From Cloeon dipterum (Eukaryota > Arthropoda > Insecta > Ephemeroptera > Baetidae), in NCBI RefSeq assembly GCF_949628265.1, contig NC_088787.1, positions 8,918,501-8,982,500 of the forward strand: a stretch of DNA of 64,000 nt, read 5' to 3'. Within the stretch, counting starts at the first letter, position 1; each line of letters starts with the position of its first letter. Below the pieces are notes generated by a model. The model did no database searches and was not told the DNA's origin. It worked only from the letters and a program-made list of their open reading frames with translations. Of this stretch, positions 6,576 to 22,749 are shown piece by piece. The position numbers and the translations under genes are program-made.

Positions 6576-9500
6576 TCAACGACGCAGTGAAATGTCAGGA
6601 CTGTTTTGCACAATCCATTTGATGTATCTAGTGATGTCAACAAACAAGGAGAACTGATTTGTGTCACAAACACGTTGATCAACATTATCTATCTTTCCCA
6701 TTCGGCTAGGACCGAAACTAACGACGCCTCGCAAGTAGAATCGCTTGTCGCTGATCGAGGTGCCGTTTGCAATGAGCAGTCCGCCGCCGCTGTCCCCACC
6801 GCAAACATTTGTACCTGTGCATGTTAATTAGATCATTGTTGAAAAAGAATCAAAAGGTCACCATTATGAGGAAATCCGGCGCAAAAGTTTTGAGTTGGCC
6901 TCAGATGCTTCGAGAAGAACCTTTTATTCGAAAAGAAGCACTCGTTGTGCGACACAATCCGTAAAAATGCTTTCTGAAGGATTTTTGCTTGCGAATAGTT
7001 TGCTGTGAGACCAAATCCAACGACCTTACGAACAAATCCATAGTTTTAATATTTAAAAAAATTAAAACAGTAGCTCAACTTTTCCATCTTTTCCGACAAT
7101 TTTGTCAAAGTCATAATCACTATTCCACAAGCAGACTGGCTTAACTCGTTCAGATAGGTGTATGCTCTTATTGCCGTGCTCATCCAGGATTATCAAAGCC
7201 AAGTCGTGTTGCCAATCTTTTCTGTCATTGTTGTATCCGGGATGAATTACGACTGAAGCTGCCTATTTAAAATTAAAATGGAGTGAAATAAAGCGAGACA
7301 TAAAGCAGAAGTTTAGTTTTACTGTTATTAAATATCACAAGTGATATTTAATTTCAAAGTGCAATTCAAAATCGAGGATGATAGTTTGAAATGAAAAATA
7401 AAATCGATTGAACTATAATACCAAAAAAATGAAGTTCTTTATGAGCGCGTGTCGTCAATAGCCATGCGTAATTTATTGAAATGAGACCTTGTTACCTAAT
7501 TATTGTATCTGAAATATTTTCACCTGCACTATCTGCCGCCCGTTTTCAGTATTGTTCCGTACATCATACATCCCCAGGGTAATCTCCAGCCATTCCGGTT
7601 CATATCGTGTACCAGTAGGACCATACATGCAGTGAGCAGCTAAAAATATTAATTTTATATTATGTGAAGTTTCAGTGCAAGCGCCTTTATTTGAATTTTT
7701 CAATCACTCTATTTACCAGTCACTACTACTCTTTTAGACACCAGTGTGCCACCGCAGGCGTCGTAGAGAGGATCAGTAGTTGGCAAGTTGATCGTCAGGC
7801 TCACGTGCCACGGATTCTCCTCGATTGAGGCGTTTGTACCGTGATGCAAATAGGGCATTGCCAAGTCATCCCGTTTCTGGCGGCCTCCCCTTCTTTCCCA
7901 ATCAACCTTTCCGCAACCTTCGTAGCTTTCCTTCGCTCCAAACTCTGTGTGTTAAAGCAATGTTGTATAATTTTCATATTTTGATGTTTTGCATACCTAG
8001 CTTTTTCGCTAATTTTGGAATCTTTGGCAACAGAGTCACATCATCCAATTTAGGAACAATTTCTTTGATGTCATTAAGAATGTCAGTCCATAGAATAATT
8101 TCCGTCCTCCAATCGCCATGCCAAACATCAACCCACTCGGTTCTGAGTCTTGTTCTGGTTGCACGTAAATAATATCGGTTCGAATCTTTCATTATCAGAA
8201 GCATGCCTGGAAAAAATATTTTAATTAAATTACGAACTAGACACAATAAGTATTTTATTCGCTCTTTTAATAAATAAATTAAAATCGCAATAAAGTGATT
8301 ACAGCAATTTTAGTGCACCCTTTCAACTACTCTTTTGCAATACTGGTGAATGGATGTGAGGGTTAATTTTTGCATTAATCTTGAAATTCACCTGTATCTT
8401 CAAAATGGCTACACATAAGTAAATTCATCTTTTGGCAAAGGTACTGGCTGATTTTACTATCCCGAAAGCATTCTTGATGGTTTAAAAGTGTTGTATTTTT
8501 CAATTTTATCTGCAAAATAAATATTTATAAAAAAACAAGGGAAATTAAATATTTTAATACGTCTGCTTGAGTGAAGACGAATGTATCGAAAGAGAAGTCT
8601 TTCAGGTTATTCCTGCTCCACAAGCAGATTGGCTTCAAATGCTGCGTTAATGTAACTTTTTCGATTTTCCACACTTCTAGATCACCGACTACAATTTCTC
8701 TGGACTGCACCTAAAATAAAAAGAAACGAATAGATTGTTACGTGAGAATAGACAACAATATTATTCCATTAAACACAAACGGTCGTAATTAAAATTTTCT
8801 CAAAAATGGCTATAGTGTGTATAATTATGTAGGTTAACTTCGATTTATTTATAATTATGAACGCTGCCGAGCTGGTAAATTCCTACTTTTTGGTTTAGTA
8901 ATCCTCTTCCAATCCTACAATTCTCTTCATTTGACCCAGAATCGCACGGGCCAGCATAGAGACGGTAGTTTTCAATATTCCGAGTGGTCGTTTCATCTGA
9001 CAGAAAACTGTGTTAGAAAGGTGAAAATGGTAGGTGACAAGGGCTCTCTTTGATATGAGGAAACAACTGAATAATCGCTTTAAATTCTCGATTATGGTTA
9101 TTGTCTTGATGCATTATTATAGTTAGAAGGTTGGCAAGGAAATTCTTAGGATTAAACGTTTTAGATTTTTACGAAACAGGTGGCTTCATTTTTGTCGTTA
9201 ACTATAAAATTGTACATTCCTCGTACATTTTCTTAAATTTTAGTGCACCTACAATATTGGAAATTTAATTAAGATTTCAGAATAATTTTAGTTATTTGCT
9301 GGACTATTAACCACTACTTAAAACATATAAATGAACCCTTATGGGAAGTTTTAATTTATTTCTGGGAATGAGAAAGGACCTACCAATTAATATTTCCAAT
9401 TAAATAGTCACTAAAAAAATATTAACCTAAATTGAGCAAAAACAAATTTTTAAAAAAAAAAATATTGAAATGTTTGGCAAAATGTTTGGCTAATAATCGA

Positions 9501-10284
9501 TGAATCGACAAATCTCTGCCTCTCGTTAGGGATGGCCAAACAAATTCAATGAAACGTCGAATCGTATGAATTTCATTTTTGTGAGATGAAATGATATTTT
9601 TCCTCACAGTTGAGAATATAAATTTTCGATAGCGATTTAAGAAACATGCCCTTGAAAATATTTTAGAATGTACTCACTGTGAAAAACTAATATAGCTTTC
9701 TCGGTTACTAAAAAGCCACTCATTTCAAGAGAGCGCATCCAATAATCTGGAAACTTCATTATATACACAATTCATACAAATTAGTCAAAGATATGGGTTA
9801 CTTTGAGGTTAGTCTTCAATGTTAATTGTGCTTACCCATAATTTGAATCCAACCTGATCCCGACCTTCAAATGAAATGATAACAGACCATGGCACGTCAC
9901 CATTACCATCCCATTGTCCACATTTTTCAGAGCTCAAATTTTCCGTTCCAGGAGAATACACTGGAAATTTGTTAATGTTATCAAAATTAATGTTAAGCTT
10001 TAAAATTATAATCTCTTTTCTAAGTGTTTTAGTTTAATATTCTACTTGGGTTTTCTATTTCATCCCATCAAACCTGGTGCATCCAAAGCAGGTCTTCTTT
10101 TGCCGTAATTCTGACAGTTCCTTGCCGGCATTTTATCCTAAAATTTTCACAAAATTAGTGTTGAGAGTTCGAGCGAAATGATTTTTCATTGATTAAAAAA
10201 TAGATACAAATCGCGTCATACCTGCTGGGATCCTTCGCACGTTGATACGATGGTTAACAAGAGAATGAACCATTTGGTGTTCAT
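6576..10284 (-). CDS. Copy A: secreted two-domain serine protease, first domain degenerate
   Basis: Thirteen exons: 10222-10284, 10074-10137, 9836-9960, 9678-9753, 8887-8996, 8561-8710, 8392-8509, 7997-8206, 7717-7944, 7524-7639, 7080-7262, 6862-7024, 6576-6814. All phases agree and give about 614 residues. It starts with a signal peptide (MNTKWFILLLTIVSTCEG). Residues about 45-300 form a decayed trypsin fold: FLVTEKAILVFHN replaces the AAHC block, GDLEVW stands at the Asp position, and EDTGGM replaces GDSGGP. Residues about 310-614 are a trypsin-like domain with the full triad: AAHC near 384, HDLAL near 440, CGGDSGG near 544. Residue 189 is Asn, so the S1 pocket is not trypsin-like. The linker carries RQKR, a furin-type motif. 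Expected to be extracellular; the substrate is unknown. Confidence 0.85.
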
Positions 10285-11192: not shown

Positions 11193-14100
11193 TCAACGAC
11201 GCAGTGAAATGTCAGGACTGTTTTGCACGATCCATTCAATGTATCTAGTGATGTCAACAAACAAGGAGAATTGATTTGTGTCACAAACACGTTGATCAAC
11301 ATTATCTATCTTTTTAATTCGGCTCGAACCGAAACTAACGACGCCTCGCAAGTAGAATCGCTTGTTCCTGACCAAGGTGCCGTTCGCAATGATCAATCCG
11401 CCGCCACTGTCCCCAACGCAAACATTTGTCCCTGAGAATGTTAATTAGATAATTTGTTGAGAAAGTATCAAAAGGTCACCATTATGAGGAAATCCGGCGC
11501 AAAAGTTTTGTGTTGGCCTGAGATGCTTCGAGAAGAACCTTTTATTCGAAAAGAAGCACTCGTTGTGCGACTCAATCCGTATAAACGCTTTCTGAAGGAT
11601 TGTTGCTTGCGAATAGTTTGCTGTGAGACCAAATCCAACGACCTTACGAACAAATCCATTGTTTTAACATTTTTTTTAAATAAAACAGTGAAGCAACTTT
11701 TCCATCTTGCCCGGCAATTTTCTCAATGTCATAATCACTGTTCCACAAGCAGGCTGGCCTCACTCGATCAGATAGGTGTATACTATTATTGCCGTGCTCA
11801 TCCAGGATTATCAAAGCCAAGTCGTGTTGAAAATCTTTTCGGTCGTTGTTGTATTTGGGATGAATTACAACTGAAGCAGCCTATTTAAATAACAATCGAA
11901 TGAGTTAGGGGTTAGGGCTAAACATAAATAGATGTTAGTTGTATTTTTATTAAATATTGTAGGTAATATTCAACTACAAAGAATTCATTTCAATATCGAG
12001 GATAATGATTTAAATTCAAAAAATATTCTATTGAAAAAATAACATGTTCGAAATTATTTAACCTGGACTATCTGACGCCCGTTCTCAGTATTGTCTCCTA
12101 CATCATACATCCCCAGGGTGATCTCCAGCCATTCCATTTCATATCGTGTACCAGTTGTTGGACTAAACATGCAGTGAGCAGCTGAAAAGATTAATTATAT
12201 ATTATGCGAAGTTTCAGGGCAAGCACCTCTATCTACTTGTCAATCACTTTATTTACCAGTCACTATTACTCTCTTAGACACCAGTGTGCCACCGCAGATG
12301 TCGAAGAGGGGCTCAGTTGTTGGAAAGTTGATTGTCAGGCTCACGTGCCACGGATTTTCCTCGATTGGGGCGTTTGTGCCGTGGTGCAATAAGGGTATTG
12401 GCAAGCCATCCCGTCTCTGGCGGCCTCCCCTTCTTGTCCAAGCAACCTTTCCGCAACCTTCGTAGCTTTCCTTTGCTCCAAATTCTGAATGTCAAAGCAA
12501 TGATTTATAAATTTCAAATTATGATGATATACACATACCTATCTTATTCGCTAATTCTGGAATCGGTGGCATCACAGTCACACCAGCTAATTCAAAAACA
12601 TTTTCGTTGAGATTGAGAATATCGAAAATATCAGACCATAGAATAATTTTCTTCTCCAAGTCTCCATGCCAAAAATCATCCCACTCGAAATTGACATTGA
12701 TATTGTATCTGGTTGCACGAAAATAATATCGGTTCGAATCCTTCATTATCAGAAACATGCCTGGAAATAAATGCGAAAAACTTTTACTAAAGGACTGTGC
12801 ACAACATGCTTTGCAGGTGAGTATTTTATTTTGCTCTTGTAATCAATAAATTAAAACCACAAGAAAATTTCAATTCTTTTTTGCTACTCAAAATCACACT
12901 TATGAAAAGGATAGGATATGATGAATAATTTTTGCACAAACGAAGGAATAAGCTAATCTTGAAACTCACCTGAATCTTCAAAATGAGTGCACATACGTAC
13001 GTTCATCTTTTGGCAAATGAATTTGCTGATGTTACTTTCCCGATAGCATTCTTGATGGTTCAAAAGTGTTGTATTTTTCAATTTTCTCTATGAAAAAAAA
13101 TATTTATGAATAGCAAAAGGTAAATTACATACTAGAAAAATGCATAATACGTCTGCTTGAGTGAAGACATATGAATCAAAAGAGGAGTCTTGCAGATTAT
13201 TCCTGTTCCACAAGCAGATGGGCTTCAAATGCTGCGTTAATGTAACTTTTTCAATTTTCCACACAGCCAGTTTGCTGTATCTATCGTCATATATATTCTG
13301 CACCTAAAAATAGTTTGAAAATGAAAGAATTTATAACACTACTATATTGACTTTTGCGTGAGAATATAAAATAACTATATAATTAACATTAATTGTCATG
13401 GACATTAAACATTTTTAAGATCCCAAAAATGGCTGCTGTGTAATTATGTAGGGTAAAATTCGTTTTATTTATAATAATGAAATCCCCAGCAAGATAGAAA
13501 GTTCTTACTTTCTGGTTTAGTAAGCCTCTTCCAAACTTGCAGTTCCCTTCATTTGACCCAGATTCACACGGGCCAGCATATAGACGGTAGTATTTAATAT
13601 TCCGAGCGATCGTTTTATCTGACAAAAAACTGTGTTAGAAAGTTGAAGAGATGGAAGGTGACAAGGCCTCTCTTTGCTATGATGATACAACTGAATTGCT
13701 ATATAAATTATCTAGTGTGGATATTGTGTTGACAAACTATTGTAAGAAAACTGGCAAGGAAACTCTTATTAGGATTTGCTGACGTTTTAGATTTTGGTGG
13801 AATTATTGAAATCGTGTATAGTTTCTATTAAGTTAAGATATATTAGAAAAAATGTTAGGTTCGAACTTGATGGGAAATGCATTCAAAATCGAATTTTTAT
13901 GACAGTTTTTTTCAACCGTGATGATATTTTATAGGCAAACACTACTTGATAAGACTAATCGATCAATGGATCACTTTTTATTTTCCTGAAATTTACCGGA
14001 AATTGGAAAACGCGTGGTTTAAGAAAATAATTAAACAACCAGGTCATAAATATGGCTTCATTGAATTTCTTAAGTCTTAATATTACACGCGTAAAATTGG

Positions 14101-15421
14101 AAATTTCATCAAGATTTAATATTTTTTGCTGTACTATTAACTGCTTAAAACAAAGCCCGAAACGAACCATGAGGGGAAATTTATACTATTTTTCCGGAAC
14201 ATGAGAATGGACCCACCAGCAATTAATTTGTCCAATTAAACATTCACTTCAAACCAATATTAATCTAAATTGAGCAAAAGCCGAATTATTCAATAAATTT
14301 TGATATGTTTTGTCATTTTATTAAAATCACAATATATTGCTAAAATTGATGAATAGAAAAATATCCACCTCTCGTTGGGGAAGGCTAAATAAATTCACTG
14401 GTTTCGCCAGAAACTAAAACGGCAAATCATAAGAGTTCGCTTGGTTAGAAGAAATCGAAAATTTGTTGAATATATATATACTCACTGCGAAAAACTAATA
14501 CGGCTCTCTCGGTGATTAAAAAACCATAAGATTCACGACAAGTCAAATCATCTGGAATCTTAGTGTAATAAATTAGCGTGGGATAGGATACTTTGAGGTT
14601 GGTTTTAATACTAGTTGTGCTTACCCAAAAAAATGGTCCATGCCAATTCGCGTTTTCAATTGAAATGATAACAGTCCATGGCATGTCACCATCACCATTC
14701 CATAATCCACATTTTTCAGTGCTCAAATTTTCGGTTCCAGAAGAATACACTGGAAGTTTGTTTATGTTAACAAAAATATTAAGCTTTAAAATTAGAATCT
14801 CGTCTTTTTTTAAATGTTTGCGAAGGGAAATTTAGAAGGTGCTTTGAATTTATAAAAAAATTTGCCGGTACGCCTCCAGATTTGTGAGGTACGACTCTGG
14901 CTAAATCAGGCTCTCGGCGTGGCTTCTCGGTGTCGCCGCCCTCGCTGTACTTACTGCTGACTCGACCTGGGCCGTCTCTTGGTGCTCAGCCGCTGTCGCT
15001 TTGCACCCTCGCTCACTCGGGTAAGGTCCTAAAGCGACAGCGGCTGAGCAGCGGCACCAAGAGACGGCCCAGGTCGAGTCAGCAGTAAGTACAGTGGGGG
15101 CGGCGCCACCGAGAAGCCACGCCGAGGACCTGATTTGGCCAGAGTCGTACCTTACAATGTTTTAGTTAAATCCTCTTCTGTTAATTTTTCCAACGCAACA
15201 TACCTGGTGCATCCAAAGCGGGTCTTCTTTTGCCGTAATTCTGACAGTTTTTTGCTTGTAATTCAGTCTAAAATTTAAAGAATAAATTGGTGTTGAGAGT
15301 TTGAGCAAATCACTGGTTCCAAAAATAAATTAAAAACGTGTCTTACCCCGGCATCGATGGCCTGGCATACTTCGTACGTTGCTACGGTGGTTAGCAGGAG
15401 AATGAACCATTCTTTGTTCAT
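11193..15421 (-). CDS. Copy B: secreted two-domain serine protease, first domain degenerate
   Basis: Thirteen exons: 15347-15421, 15204-15267, 14625-14749, 14486-14558, 13509-13618, 13151-13303, 12970-13087, 12539-12760, 12257-12484, 12063-12181, 11698-11880, 11480-11642, 11193-11431. All are in phase and give about 623 residues. The layout matches copy A: signal peptide, short Cys-containing segment (NCQNYGKRRP), a pseudo-protease domain, a linker with RQRR, then a trypsin-like domain with AAHC, QHDLAL and CVGDSGG. In the first domain the His block reads LVFRN and the Asp position is KLAVW, but EDSGG keeps the Ser, so at least two triad residues are lost. Intron 2 holds a GC-rich hairpin element. 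No stop or broken splice site was found. Confidence 0.85.
14887..15152. mobile_element. GC-rich hairpin (foldback) element in intron 2 of copy B
   Basis: Two arms of about 115 bp are nearly perfect inverted repeats. They begin AGGTACGACTCTGGC and end GCCAGAGTCGTACCT, and the loop is about 35 bp (around 15003-15037). The arms differ by a few substitutions and one 6-bp indel. The element is much richer in G+C than its surroundings and has no clear open frame. It is absent from the equivalent intron of copies A and D, so it inserted after duplication. Confidence 0.85.
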
Positions 15422-15545: not shown

Positions 15546-15704
15546 GTCAATTTTGTCAGCGGCATAGTGCCATTATGAGATGGCTATTTAGCCTATTGTA
15601 AGCATCTCCTCCGATTGTGAGATGGGCGACCTCCTGATTTATAGCAACTCGTGAAAAGTCACGTCCCCTTTACATGTCATGAACAAAGAGTTTATATATA
15701 ATAT

Positions 15705-16309
15705 ACTTACTGCGAAAAAATAATACGGCCCTCTCGGTTATTAAAAATCCATAAGATTCATGGGATAACATATCATCTCTGGAAACTTCATATTATACAC
15801 AATTCATAAAAACGAGCGTAACTTTGAGGTTTCTCTTCAATGTTAATTGTGCTTACCCAGGAAAAAAAATGTACCCCAAACTGGGGTTTCAATTGTAAAT
15901 ATAACAGTCCATGGCATATCACCATCACCATCCTATAGTCCACATTTTTCAGAGCTCAAATTTTCGGTTCCAAGAGAATACACTTGAAATTTATTTACGT
16001 AAATAAAATATTGTTTTATATATATAAGCTTTAGAATTATAATCTCGTCTCTTTCTTTAGTTTAATATTCCTCTTGGGTTTTTTCATCCCATCCAACCTG
16101 GTGCACCCAAAGCAGGTCTTCTTTTGTCGTAATTCTGACAGTTCCTTGGCAGTATTTTATCGTAAAATTAAAAAGAATATATATATTGAGAGTTTGAGAC
16201 AAACTAATGTTTTTGTTTGTTCCTAAAATAAATTTTAAACACGTCTTCACTGGGATCCTTTGCACATTGCTATGATGGTTAAGAGGAGAGTGAACCATTC
16301 TTTATTCAT
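15705..16309 (-). pseudogene. Copy C: 5' remnant of a protease gene
   Basis: Only the counterparts of exons 1-4 remain: signal-peptide exon from 16309 (MNKEWFTLLLTIIAMCKG), then remnants near 16100-16165, 15860-15990 and 15712-15795. Several breaks are visible. The acceptor of exon 2 is changed from TAGGATAAA to TACGATAAA. Exon 3 has a Trp-to-stop change (GGACTATAGGAT, where relatives have TGG). Exon 4 has a 2-base insertion relative to copies A, B and D. No later exons follow; the sequence runs directly into the upstream block of copy B. It looks like a truncated duplicate. Confidence 0.85.
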
Positions 16310-16929
16310 TTCTCCTGTAATTTTTCTTTACTACCAATCTAATCAAGAAGACTGTTCTCGCTCAGAAATGCTGATGAGCAGTGACTCTTATGCAATTATT
16401 CGTATTAGCTTGATATTTTATCATTGACCGCGAAGAAGGTCAAGTTTGTCAGCGTCAGTTCCATTGTGTGTAAGGGCTATTCTGCGTATTGTAATAATTG
16501 TAAGCAGCTCTTCTGGTTAAGAGATGGTTGACCTCCAGATTTTTAGCTACTCGCTAAAGTTATTCGCGTCCCATTTACGCCGCTCTACTAATTGCGTTTG
16601 ATATTATAATAAAATTCATAAAAATTAAGTATCAATGCAACGTTTAGGCTATGATTTTTGCTGTATAAGTTTCATGCTAGTTGAAAAGCAAGCTAAAAGA
16701 TGGTCTTACATATCTAAAAGTGATAAAACAAAATAGTAGAAAAGGATGCCAATTTTCTTTGCTCGTTTAGAAACTGGGTCATCTATTTAAAGCAAATTAA
16801 TACACCGCAGCATTACAATTAAAATTGCGAAAATAATTAAGGAAAAAATTGAAGGTATGCAAAATCATATGGTTTTTTTCTAACTTCCCTAATTTTATTT
16901 TATTGCACGCTTCAAATTAGTGATACAAA
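16310..16929. other. Spacer between copies C and D
   Basis: It contains the upstream block of copy C (about 16340-16445) and then AT-rich sequence similar to the A-B spacer. I see no gene. Confidence 0.6.
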
Positions 16930-18279
16930 TCAACCACGCAGTGATATGTCAGGACTGTTTTGCACAATCCATTCAATGTAACTAGTGATGTCAACAAACA
17001 AGGAGAATTGATTTGGTTCACAAACACGTTCATGAACATTATAAATCCTTTTAATTTGGCTGGGACCGAAACTAAGGACGCCTCGCAAGTAAAATCGCTT
17101 GTCGCTGCTGCTTGAAGTGTCGTTCGCAATGAGCAGTCCGCCGCCTCTGTCCCCATTGCAAACTTTGGTCCCTGTGCATGTTAATTAGATTATTGTTGAG
17201 TAAGTATCAAAAGGTCACCATTATAATGAAATGCAGCGCAAAAGTTTTGTGTTGGCCTCAGATACTTCGAGAAGAACTCTTTATTCGAAAGGAAGCACTC
17301 GTTTTTTGACGCAATCCGTACAATCGCTTTCTGAAGGATCAATGTTTCTTGCGAATGGTTTGCTGTGAGACCATATCCAACAACCTTACGAACAAATCAA
17401 ATGTTTTAATTCTTAAATAAATAAAACAGTGACGCAACTTTTCCATCTTGCCCGGCAATTTTGTCAAAGTCATAATCACTGTTCCACAAGCAGGCTGGCC
17501 TCACTCGACCAGAGAGCTTTATGCTCTCATTGCCTTTTTCATCCAGGATTATCAAAGCCAAGTCGTCTTGCCAATCATTCCTATCGCTGTGGTATCCGGG
17601 ATGAATTACAACTGAAGCAGCCTATATTTAAATAGCAATCGAATGATTTTGAGCTAAACATGAAAAGTTGCTTAGTTTTTGTCTTAATAAATATAATATT
17701 TAAATTACAAAGTACACTTCAAAACAAGACTGATGATTTCAATTATTTCAAATAATCTATTGAACAAAAAAAAATTATTTAAATGAAAATATTTTACCTT
17801 GACTGTTTGACTTCTGTTTCTAGTAGTGTCTTCTATATCATACATCCCCAGGGTGATCTCCAGCCATTCCGTTTCATATCGTGTACCAGTAGGACTATAC
17901 ATGCAGTGGGCAGCTAAAATATAATTTTATATTATGCAAAGTTTCAGGGCAAGCGTTTCCAATGCCTTTATTTGAATTTTTCAATAACTCTATTTACCAG
18001 TCACTATTACTCTCTTAGACACCAATGTGCCACCGCAGATGTCGAAGAGGGGATCAGTTGTTGGAAAGTTGATCGTCAGGCTCACGTGCCAGGGATTCTC
18101 CTCGATTGGGGCGTTTGTGCCGTGGTGCATTAAGGAAATTGGTAAGTCATCCCGTCTCCGGCGGCCTCTCCTTCTTGTCCAAGTAACCTTTCCGCAACCT
18201 TCGTAGCTTTCTTCCGCTCCAAATTCTGAGTGTCAAAGCAATGTGTTATAAATTCCATATTATGTGATGTTTTGCATAC

Positions 18280-18588
18280 CTATCTTTGTCGCTAATTTTG
18301 GAATCGGTGCCATCAGAGCAACAATTTTTTTCATTCCATTGAGACCGATTCCATGACGCAGTGAAATGTCGGGACTGTTTTGCACAATCCATTCGATGTA
18401 ACTAGTGATGTCAACAAACAAGGAGAATTGATTTGTATTACAAACATGTTTCGTATCATTATTTATCTCCATAGTTCGGCTCGGACCGAAACTAACGACG
18501 CCTCGCAAGTAGAATCGCTTGTCGCTGATCGAGGTGGCGTCCCCAATGAGCAGTCCGCCGCCGCTGTCCCCAACACAAACATTTGTAC
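18280..18588 (-). other. Chimeric exon joining two protease units
   Basis: The first part matches the last exon of copies A and B (GDSGG through NSPDISLR). Where those end in Arg-stop, this exon continues with HGIGLNGMKKIV and then the PIPKLATKIG linker that belongs to exon 8 of the other copies. It is open from acceptor to donor, 309 bases, with the phases of a linker exon. This is what unequal crossing-over between the paralogous C-terminal exons of two protease domains would produce. Confidence 0.85.
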
Positions 18589-21149
18589 CTGTGCATGTTA
18601 ATTAGACCATTGTTGATAAAATATAAAAAGTTAACCAGTAAGAGGATATCCAGCGCAAAAGTTTTGTGTTGGCCTGAGATGCTTCGAGAAGAACCTTTTA
18701 TTCGAAAAGAAGCACTCGTTGTGTGAAACAATCCGTAAAAACGCTTTCTGAAGGATTGTTGCTTGCAAATAGTCTTTTGTGAGACCAAATCCAGTGACCT
18801 TACGAACAAATCCATAGTTTTAATATTAAAAAAAAATAAAACAGTAGCTCAACTTTTCCATCTTTTCCGACAATTTTGTCAAAGTCATAATCACTATTCC
18901 ACAAGCAGACTGGCTTCACTCGATCAGAGAGCTGTATACTATTATTGCCTTTTTCATCCAGGATTATCAAAGCCAAGTCGTGTTGCCAATCTTTTCTGTC
19001 ATTGTTATATCCGGGATGAATTACAACTGAAGCTGCCTATTTAAAATTAAAATGGAGTGAAATAAAGCGATACATAAAGCAGAAGTTTAGTTTTACTGTT
19101 ATTAAATATCATAAGTAATATTTAATCTCAAAGCGCAATTCAAAATCGAGGATGATAGTTTGAATTGAAAAATAAAATCTATAGAACTATAATATCAACA
19201 AAAAAATTAAGTTCTTTATGAGCGCACGTCGTCAATAGTTATGCGTAATTTATTGAAATGAGACCTTGTTACCTAATTATTGTATCTGAAATATTTTCAC
19301 CTGCACTATCTGCCGCCCGTTTTCAGTATTGTCCCGTACATCATACATCCCCAGGGTAATCTCCAGCCATTCCGGTTCATATCGTGTACCAGTAGGACCA
19401 TACATGCAGTGAGCAGCTAAAAGAATTAAATTAGATATTATGCGAAGTTTCAGTGCAAGCGCCTTTATTTGAATTTTTCAATCACTCTATTTACCAGTCA
19501 CTATTACTCTTTTAGACACCAGTGTGCCACCGCAGGCGTCGTAGAGAGTATCAGTAGTTGGCATGTTTATCGTCAGGCTCACGTGCCACGGATTTTCCTC
19601 AATTGGGGCATTTGTGCCGTGGTGCACGTAAGGGATTGGCAAGCCATCCCGTCTCTGGCGGCCTCCCCTTCTCTCCCAATCAACCTTTCCGCAACCTTCG
19701 TAGCTTTCCTTCGCTCCAAACTCTGTGTGTTAAAGCAATAGTTTATAAATTTCATATTATGATGTTTTGCATACCTAGCTTTGTCGCTAATTTTGGAATC
19801 TTTGGCAGTCACATCACCCGATTTAGCAACAATTTCTTTGATGTCATATAGAATGTCAGCCCATTTAATAGTTTCATTCTGCTTAGCATTATATCTGGTT
19901 GCACGTAAATAATATCGGTTCGACTCTCTCATTATCAGAAAAACGCCTGGAAATAAATATTTTTAATTAAATTGCCAAAAACTTTTACTGGATATTTTAC
20001 TGAGTATTTACAAATAGTAAATATATAATGCATGCAAAAAATTATGACGGAAATTTTAATGCACCCTTTCAAGTGCTCTCTCTAATTCAAAATCACACTG
20101 GTAAATAGATAGGATGATAAATGATTTTTGTTAAAATGAAGGAAAAAATTAATCTTGACATTCACCTGAATCTTTATAATCAGTAGACTGCATATTATCT
20201 AACTTCGGTAAAATCCGGTAAACCGTATATCTATTGCGAATGCGTCCTCTTTTCCAATCCATGGAGCATCTGGCAAGGGGTGCACGTGGCAAAAGTGTTG
20301 CAGTTTTCAATTTCCTCTACAAAATAATTTTTGTCAAAACCGGGGAAATTAAATATCTGAAATATTTCTAATACGTCTGCTTGAGTGAAGACGAAAGAAT
20401 CGTAAGAGGAATCTTGCAGATTATTGCTGTTCCACAAGCAGATTGGCTTCAAATACTGCGTTATTGTAACATTTTCGATTTTCCACACTTCTAGTGCATC
20501 GCCTACAACGTTTCTTGACTGCACCTAAAAAAAGACTGGATTTAAAAGATACGAATTAAACGCTATTATATTGACTTTTACGTGAGAATAAACAACTATA
20601 TTATTCTATTAAACATTAATGATTGTAATTAATTGTAATCAATAATGGCTAGTGTATAATTAGGTACGGTAAAACTAGTTTTATTCACTACCATCAACGC
20701 CAGCTAGCTAGTAAATTCCTACTTTTTGGTTTAGTAATCCTCTTCCAAACTTGCAGTTCCCTTCATTTGACCCAGAATCGCAAGGGCCAGCATACAAACG
20801 GTAGTTTTCAATTATCTCAATGTCCATTGGATCTGACACAAAACTGTGTTAGAAGGTTGAAGATGGTAGGTGACAAATGCCTCTCTCTCTCTGCTATGAG
20901 TATATACAACTGAACCGCGATAAATTCAAGAGTTTGGTTATTGTGTTGACGAACTATGGAAATAAGGAAACACTCGACGTTTTAGATTTTGCCGAAATCA
21001 TTGAAATGATATATGTAGTTTCCATCAAGTTAATAGATATCGCCTGAGGAAAATTTTAAATTCGAGAGTTATGTTATATGGTGCTCCTAAGGTAAAAAAA
21101 TAAAACATGGGGATGCATTTTAATTTTTGGAAAATTCATCTGTAGATTT

Positions 21150-21600
21150 TAGACGTTTTTTTGCTCTTTTTATCCCTGTCCCCTCGGACCGGGAAGGGCG
21201 CGCACTGCACTAGCACGAATGCTGAAACCCGGGTCCCAATAACACCGCGAACGGATAACATGGGCGCACCAGGCCGCACAGGGACCCAGCCCACTGAAGG
21301 GTCACTTGCCTCCGCACCGAGGACTGCATTGTAACGCTAGACATTCGTCCCGTGAAGCCAAATCACGCATGCTGGAAAGGTGCAAACCAGCAAGTACAGT
21401 AGAGAGTCGCCTCCCAGCCCGTTGAGCAATTTGAGCATTTCGAGTCACTAAACTAACCACTTTTTGCCATCTCTGACATTGGGTAGCCAGTATTAGATCT
21501 CCGAACTGCTCAAATACCTCCCATTGCTTTGACACTCCTGAGAATGCCTTAACAATGCGAGCCAACGGGCTGGTTGCCGGGAAAATAAAATTAACGAGGT
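21150..21600. mobile_element. GC-rich insertion in intron 4 of copy D
   Basis: Intron 4 of copy D is about 1.3 kb, against about 0.7-0.9 kb in copies A and B. It contains a block of much higher G+C with a minus-strand open frame of about 87 codons (21302-21565). I do not recognise the protein. The composition and absence from the sister copies point to an inserted element, possibly a retroelement fragment. The borders are approximate. Confidence 0.45.
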
Positions 21601-22749
21601 TAAAGTAAATAATTAAAATTCTGATCCCACTACCAGGTCATGGGATTTCATTAAAAAAAACTGTAATTTCTTAATACGTTTTCGAAAGTGTTAGTTCATT
21701 GGAAATTTTATCAAGATTTCGGGGTACTTTTTGTTTATTTCTGTACTATAAACCACTTAAATCATAAAAAGCCCGATACGAACCCTTATTGAATTTAACA
21801 TTTTTCCGGAACATGAGAAAGGAACCATTAATCAATATGTCCAATTAAATAAACACTAAAAACCAATATGATACCAAATGGAGCAAAAACTGCATTTTTC
21901 TTTAAATTTTAGAAATGTTTGGCTATTTTTCTACAGTTTCAAAATCACTAAAATCGATCAATCGAAAATTTCCAACTCTTATCAGGGAAGACTACACAAA
22001 TACAATAGTTTCTCCAAAAACTGAAACGTCGAATCGGAAGAGTTTCCTTAATAATGAGAAGAAATCTCAGGGGGGAAATGTTTTTCCGTATACGGTTGAG
22101 AACATAAAATTTTAAGACTCACTGCGAAAAACTAATACGGTTTCCTCGGTTATTAAAAAACCATAAAATTCTTGAAAGCTCTTCAAATCATCTGGAATCT
22201 TCATAAGATACACAATTCATCGAAATTTAGCGTAATAGGATACTTTGAGGTTGGTCATCAATGTTAACTGTACTTACCCATCCGGCGGATGTGTTCCAAT
22301 CCTGGCCTTCAATTGTAATGATAACAGTCCATGGCATGTCACCATTACCATCCCATAGTCCACATTTTTCATAGCTCAAATTCTCAGTTCCAGGTGAATA
22401 CACTAGAAATTTTGTATGTTAACAAACAGATTGTTGTGAATTAATTAAGCTTTAAATTTGAATCTCGTCTCTTTTAAAAAAATTTCAGAAAATTTTCCTC
22501 TTATGTTTTGTATCCCATCAAACCTGGTGCATCCAAAGCAGGTCTTTCATTGTAACAGATCCGTTGGAGTAAAGTCTAAAATTGAAAGCAAAATTGGTGT
22601 TGAGAGTTCGAGCAAAACTATTTTTCGTTGGTTCCAAAAAATAAATAAATAGAAACGTATCTTACAGAAAGGGCTCCTTCGCACGTTGCAACGGTGGTTA
22701 GCAGGAGAATGAACCATTCTATGTTCATTTCTCCTGTTTTTCTCCCAAT

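Follow-up and report, generated by a model that had tools for sequence, protein, structure and literature searches.

Insects and vertebrates are known to have serine proteases in which an active domain is combined with a dead one (PMC11172050, PMC1435904). In Tenebrio molitor, seven polypeptidases are described, four of which consist of a chymotrypsin-like protease followed by an inactive homolog; the same report proposes, by analogy with the human polyserases, that the inactive domain has a modulating role (PMC11172050). Among the domains of human polyserase-2 just the first is active, and recombination or exon swapping has been suggested as the origin of the human polyserases (PMC1435904).

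We analyzed a serine protease gene, U1, in a stretch of 64,000 nucleotides from Cloeon dipterum (the window). Judged from its DNA, U1 belongs in kind with the insect polypeptidases and the polyserases and differs from them in its spacer, its leading degenerate domain and its readable breakpoint. Like the T. molitor polypeptidases, which have two or three S1A domains per chain, it encodes several S1A domains of which a later one looks inactive (PMC11172050), and like human polyserase-2 and -3 it has tandem S1A domains in one chain, here as read from DNA (PMC1435904). The later domain of polyserases and insect polypeptidases is often an inactive homolog, and this trait is found in D2, the second catalytic-type domain of U1. 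Whereas the T. molitor polypeptidases, as that report describes them, mostly have Sushi domains before each unit, the spacer of U1 consists of a linker-exon tail and a short propeptide; also unlike them, U1 starts with a degenerate S1A-like domain (PMC11172050). The origin of polyserase-2 and -3 is just suggested in their description, whereas the breakpoint of U1 can be read beside relatives of both parents (PMC1435904). No described case like the U1 fusion was found among the matches listed in the literature searched.

The tandem array and its chimeric exon

The window sits in contig C2 of a 190-Mb assembly of 10 contigs. It contains a tandem array of serine protease genes, all on the minus strand: the fused gene U1 (22728-16930) with its domains D1 and D2, the 5' remnant U2 (15697..16578), and two ordinary units, U3 (copy A, 11193..15421), which groups with D2, and U4 (copy B, 6576..10284), which groups with D1. 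Contig C4 holds five more genes whose exons match. An ordinary unit is made up of a signal-like exon, a degenerate trypsin-like domain, and then a catalytic trypsin domain split over five exons (T1-T5); we call the final exon of the degenerate domain the linker exon. The 5' part of U1 (19948..22728, minus strand) holds a signal-like exon (22728-22666) and the exons of the degenerate domain. The ordinary genes (U3, U4 and the five on C4) have degenerate and catalytic exons that match those of U1 and a furin-like site as U1 does, intron phases having been compared with those of U1 by eye for U3 and U4 only. Counting from the helix tryptophan, these genes have 12-13 codons left before they stop, whereas U1 continues into a second catalytic-type domain. 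For two of the C4 genes, at 21.8 Mb, a signal exon was looked for and no match was found.

Neither of the two degenerate-domain sequences compared with Pfam had a match at E up to 1. In a profile alignment, the degenerate and catalytic domains matched each other with E values of 3.2e-9 (global) and 4.1e-5 (local), the C4 members of the degenerate-domain profile being without two short exons. A reading of the 5' exons as a farnesoic acid O-methyltransferase-like domain was dropped because PF12248, with 4 matches in the genome, has none in the window and because the profile shows a degenerate trypsin-like domain. Scans of the window with Rfam (gathering cut-off) and for tRNAs gave no matches.

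Several other features of the array were recorded. The T4-like exon of the degenerate domain of U1 (20316-20166) has ~33 extra bases and is strongly different from that of U3 and U4, yet is open by eye. In U2 the donor of the signal exon is lost and the first domain exon carries a stop. This remnant directly abuts, at 15697-15690, sequence homologous to the region upstream of U3 and of other units, and the U2/U3 boundary is an apparent second rearrangement within the same array. An intron of U1 contains a repeat of ~420 bp (21156-21576). Of 3078 candidates in the genome, 40 were scored, and 39 other copies match over nearly the full length at 93-96%; the repeat is a putative high-copy, SINE-like element. 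An imperfect palindrome of ~276 bp in an intron of U3 (14882-15157) is 86% identical to its own reverse complement and had a single genomic place in the genome search.

The chimeric exon (18280..18588, minus strand) is open throughout and carries the last exon of D1 (to 18356) followed by a linker-exon tail. In copies A and B the end reads ...CTG CGT CGT TGA, and in D2 it reads ...CTG CGT GGT TGA. At the equivalent place D1 reads ...CTG CGT CAT GGA ATC GGT..., with GGA aligned to the TGA stop of A and B, in agreement with the loss of a stop codon proposed from the sequence-only reading. That reading had also suggested that the breakpoint could be mapped by comparing the copies with one another, and this proved to be the case. 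On the left, homology ends at the last sense codon, at 18355 (against A and B) or 18356 (against D2); on the right, homology to the linkers of A and B is secure from 18318 and continues into the linker intron. The 37 bases of the junction core (18319..18355, minus strand) have their best match in the helix segment of the B linker.

The intron that follows (18226..18279, minus strand) is a homolog of the introns behind the U1, A and B linkers, and the donor of the chimeric exon has the same phase as those of the A and B linkers. The next exon, T1 of D2, is in frame from 18225 and reads EFGAEESYEGCGKV. As read from DNA, a single open frame runs through D1 and D2 across conserved splice sites, as the earlier claim of an in-frame fusion had it, and both domains match the Pfam Trypsin family (E of 2.1e-32 for D1 and 1.5e-28 for D2). 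The open frame is weak evidence when taken alone, because ~24% of simulated joins with true linker ends were likewise open and in frame (5581 out of 22920 and 5961 out of 24360). In-frame openness was rejected as a proof of selection, such joins being common by chance. Searched against the 190-Mb assembly, the joined stretch of 181 bases was matched over its full length only once, at its own place in the window.

Register of the join and origin of the two domains

The 37-base core aligns to the segment of the B linker that codes for W-T-D-I-L-N-D-I-K-E-I-V. When the core was compared with the linkers, dinucleotide shuffles scored as high in 1 of 1000 cases for B, 6 of 1000 for U1 and 166 of 1000 for A, the best place in the A linker being further upstream and gapped. 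The 3' flanks of A, B and D2 were rejected as the source of the core, with 238, 343 and 285 of 1000 shuffles, respectively, equally good. Against the whole 4-kb B unit, 5 of 200 shuffles reached the observed score, and against the 4.5-kb A unit the score did not stand out (174 of 200). In view of these whole-unit results, the placement of the core draws its support also from collinearity with the bases that follow; when the whole tail was aligned pairwise, the linkers of U1, A and B all matched from the helix onward.

A profile alignment pairs the linker helix with F-V-D-I-T-R-Y-I-K-W-I-V of T5. The chimeric exon contains the complete T5 helix and then repeats it as the linker helix, the linker being re-entered 17-21 codons early, a register call that rests on the diverged 37-base core. 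By eye, no clear shared bases were seen at the join. An inverted repeat at the join, as in a templated insertion, was considered and dropped: linker sequence accounts better for the core, and matches of 10 bases occur often in the window.

We then compared D1, D2, A and B over their whole length, introns included. The pairing of D1 with B and D2 with A is favored by 54 sites, that of D1 with D2 by 9 and that of D1 with A by 6, and the D1 and B versus D2 and A split has a bootstrap of 100% (200 replicates). With the five C4 copies added, the split around D1 and B had a support of 97 and the placement of D2 with A a low support of 39. Some stretches carry other signals. In T4-T5 and their intron, 2 sites pair D2 with A, 3 pair D1 with D2, and 1 shows the remaining pattern. 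In its 3' flank, D2 agrees with B (84 of 110) no less than with A (81 of 112), and the best match of the linker tail and intron just past the join is the linker of U1 itself (93% over ~60 bases). Given the 54 sites for the first pairing, D2 most likely derives from another, A-like gene, which upholds the earlier proposal that two different genes were joined. Gene conversion could explain the signals in T4-T5, the 3' flank and the U1-like linker tail.

As a whole, the locus is probably best explained by a fusion of U1 to an A-like gene through an out-of-register join, with D1 as the active protease and D2 as its pseudoprotease partner. The join would have been made by a single deletion or illegitimate exchange. 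Its extent would be ~3 kb going by the spacing of A and B today: the end of A (11198) and the corresponding point in the U4 linker (8091) are ~3.1 kb apart. The last exon of U1 runs, just before its stop, into the linker exon of the A-like gene, and re-entry 17-21 codons upstream of the homologous position would have repeated the C-terminal helix. The promoter, the signal exon and most of the degenerate domain of the neighbour are missing from the fusion.

Other origins of the chimeric exon are less convincing to different degrees. The sequence-only reading had explained it by homologous unequal crossing-over, in register, between two exons that encode the C-terminal helix. The helices of both parent exons are homologous, and the divergence of the core means that the register rests on limited sequence, but the same core places the join at non-equivalent positions of the parents. 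Because the two helices stand in series and the join is 17-21 codons out of register, with no clear shared bases by eye, in-register crossing-over is a poor fit and we consider it improbable; a deletion or illegitimate exchange of ~3 kb fits better. It is slightly harder still to believe that both domains come from one gene, U1 having copied its own catalytic block in an intragenic tandem duplication. Such an event would yield the same kind of exon, and both the 93% match of the linker tail and intron to the linker of U1 and the T4-T5 pattern (3 sites against 2) agree with it, but the sites overall (54 against 9) point away from it. An assembly chimera or a collapse of copies is the least credible of these origins, and we regard it as very unlikely. 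Tandem arrays are prone to misassembly, but the window has no N, D1 and D2 are only 85% identical, and the junction flanks are similar but never identical to the other copies (94-95% to the left, 84-93% to the right); in addition, four of the 10 contigs of the assembly are 33-43 Mb long.

Reading frame and state of the two domains

The product of a fusion of U1 to an A-like gene would depend on the upstream linker exon of U1 (19775..19946, minus strand), the end of the degenerate N-terminal domain. This exon is 172 nt long (mod 3 = 1), compared with 210 nt in B and 222 nt in A (both mod 3 = 0), and has a 5-base deletion between 19808 and 19807. With the conserved donor, the frame from the signal-like exon to D1 is broken and a stop is met 40 bases into T1 of D1. 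A candidate alternative donor, GTGATG after an exon-final G (19808..19817, minus strand, exon end at 19818), keeps the frame to D1. On a matrix built from 38 donors read by eye from the array, it scores 4.11, above 8 of the 38, and the conserved donor scores 7.85. Either the alternative donor or skipping of the linker exon keeps the frame, with no stop in the linker or T1. A three-domain protein from U1 is possible. The earlier description of the locus as a three-domain polyserase holds in part: profile comparison places a degenerate trypsin-like domain upstream, but the protein would require a splice that avoids the 5-base deletion, and its third domain, D2, is without the catalytic serine.

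Exons T1-T4 of D1 extend over 18640..19723 on the minus strand (tblastn codon spans 19723-19490, 19417-19301, 19036-18851 and 18798-18640, with the true exon ends perhaps a few bases off); T5 lies in the chimeric exon, and the motif GDSGGG is kept. Exons T1-T5 of D2 extend over 16930..18226 on the same strand (codon spans 18226-17993, 17914-17798, 17621-17436, 17384-17223 and 17172-16936), with the stop at 16932-16930. At 17146..17148 (minus strand), D2 has AGA (Arg) for the catalytic Ser codon. The resulting GDRGGG aligns at GDSGG of factor IX, and the His and Asp motifs are retained. D1 looks like an active protease and D2 like a dead one.

No stop was found in the exon translations of D1 and D2. 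Substitutions unique to D2 number 56 in its exons and 27 in its introns; the exons have 2 indels, each of +3, and the introns have 8, of which 6 are frame-breaking. Neutral evolution would predict ~12 frameshifts and 2 stops in D2 and ~5 frame-breaking indels in D1, and no frame-breaking indel unique to the exons of either domain was found. The same pattern was seen in D1 (28 exon substitutions, no exon indel) and in A (22 exon substitutions, one +3 indel); copy B, which has no intron indel, is uninformative for this expectation. Compared with A, D2 has more changes in exons (56 vs. 22, P = 0.00015) and a similar number in introns (27 vs. 32, P = 0.60), and the ratio of exon to intron changes differs between the two (56/27 vs. 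22/32, P = 0.0027). This ratio showed no significant difference between D2 and the pooled D1, A and B (P = 0.24), and none between D1 and B (P = 0.77). The unique codon changes of D2 (25 nonsynonymous to 12 synonymous) are near the neutral 2.9:1 and do not differ from those of the other copies (P = 0.36). Because the exon indels are of +3 only and exon changes are in excess relative to A, we infer that D2 has kept its frame while its protein was freer to change than that of A. This constrained history may partly be older than the fusion.

A serious competing view is that the fused locus is a decaying pseudogene in which the 5-base deletion stops translation 40 bases into T1 of D1, so that no fused protein is made. 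The linker exon is out of phase where those of A and B are in phase, the conserved donor is stronger than the one that would rescue the frame, D2 has lost its serine and changes fast in its exons compared with A, and the T4-like exon of U1 is heavily altered by eye. Against this view, the exon translations of D1 and D2 are without a stop, none of the ~5 (D1) and ~12 (D2) frame-breaking exon indels expected under neutrality is present, the remaining splice sites and frames of U1 are intact by eye, and the alternative donor and the skipping of the linker each give a stop-free linker and T1. Weighing both sides, we hold decay to be possible but somewhat doubtful.

If the fused frame is translated, the product is predicted to be an active D1 protease with D2 as its pseudoprotease partner. 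The motif R-X-[K/R]-R-D precedes the protease domain in all 9 T1 exons compared, and we take it to resemble a furin site. Presumably, the CG motif ahead of this site contributes a Cys that pairs with the one in P-A-C-L-W, forming the propeptide disulfide that we take to be usual in this family. Because of this pairing, D1 and D2 could remain joined after cleavage: the chain would be cut at the furin-like site before D2 and its halves would still be held by the propeptide disulfide. D2 could modulate D1 without having activity of its own, in line with the proposal made for the T. molitor polypeptidases by analogy with the human polyserases (PMC11172050).

We tentatively propose, with no more confidence than we give to decay, that U1 is a working protease/pseudoprotease polyprotein near its origin. 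An illegitimate join would have captured the catalytic domain of a neighbour together with its furin-like site; the serine would then have been lost, with fast evolution in frame, and the splice of the upstream linker would have been shifted or skipped. Since relatives of both parents lie a few kb off, one can read where the break lies, in which register the parts were joined and what later became of the captured domain. U1 suggests that a crude join, out of register and with a helix repeated, is one way in which fusions of active and dead proteases can arise.

Last trypsin exons elsewhere in the genome

A query with the T5 exon gave 75 matches genome-wide at E up to 0.001, 4 of which are inside the window. 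The remaining 71 were all compared, each with 1 kb downstream. From the helix tryptophan to the stop, these exons have a median of 13 codons, with >20 codons in 7 exons and at least 28 in 4. For 70 of the 71, no T1 or T2 match was found downstream on the same strand, with queries made from the nine closest copies, which distant T1 or T2 exons could escape. In the other one (L030), the best downstream match resembles T2 weakly and lies at a distance of 568 bases (E of 0.005). A T1 exon directly after a T5-type exon was found for D1 only (1 of 75). Two distant paralogs (L083 and L084) extend 58 and 48 codons, counted from the helix tryptophan, into a hydrophobic stretch that looks like a candidate C-terminal membrane anchor.
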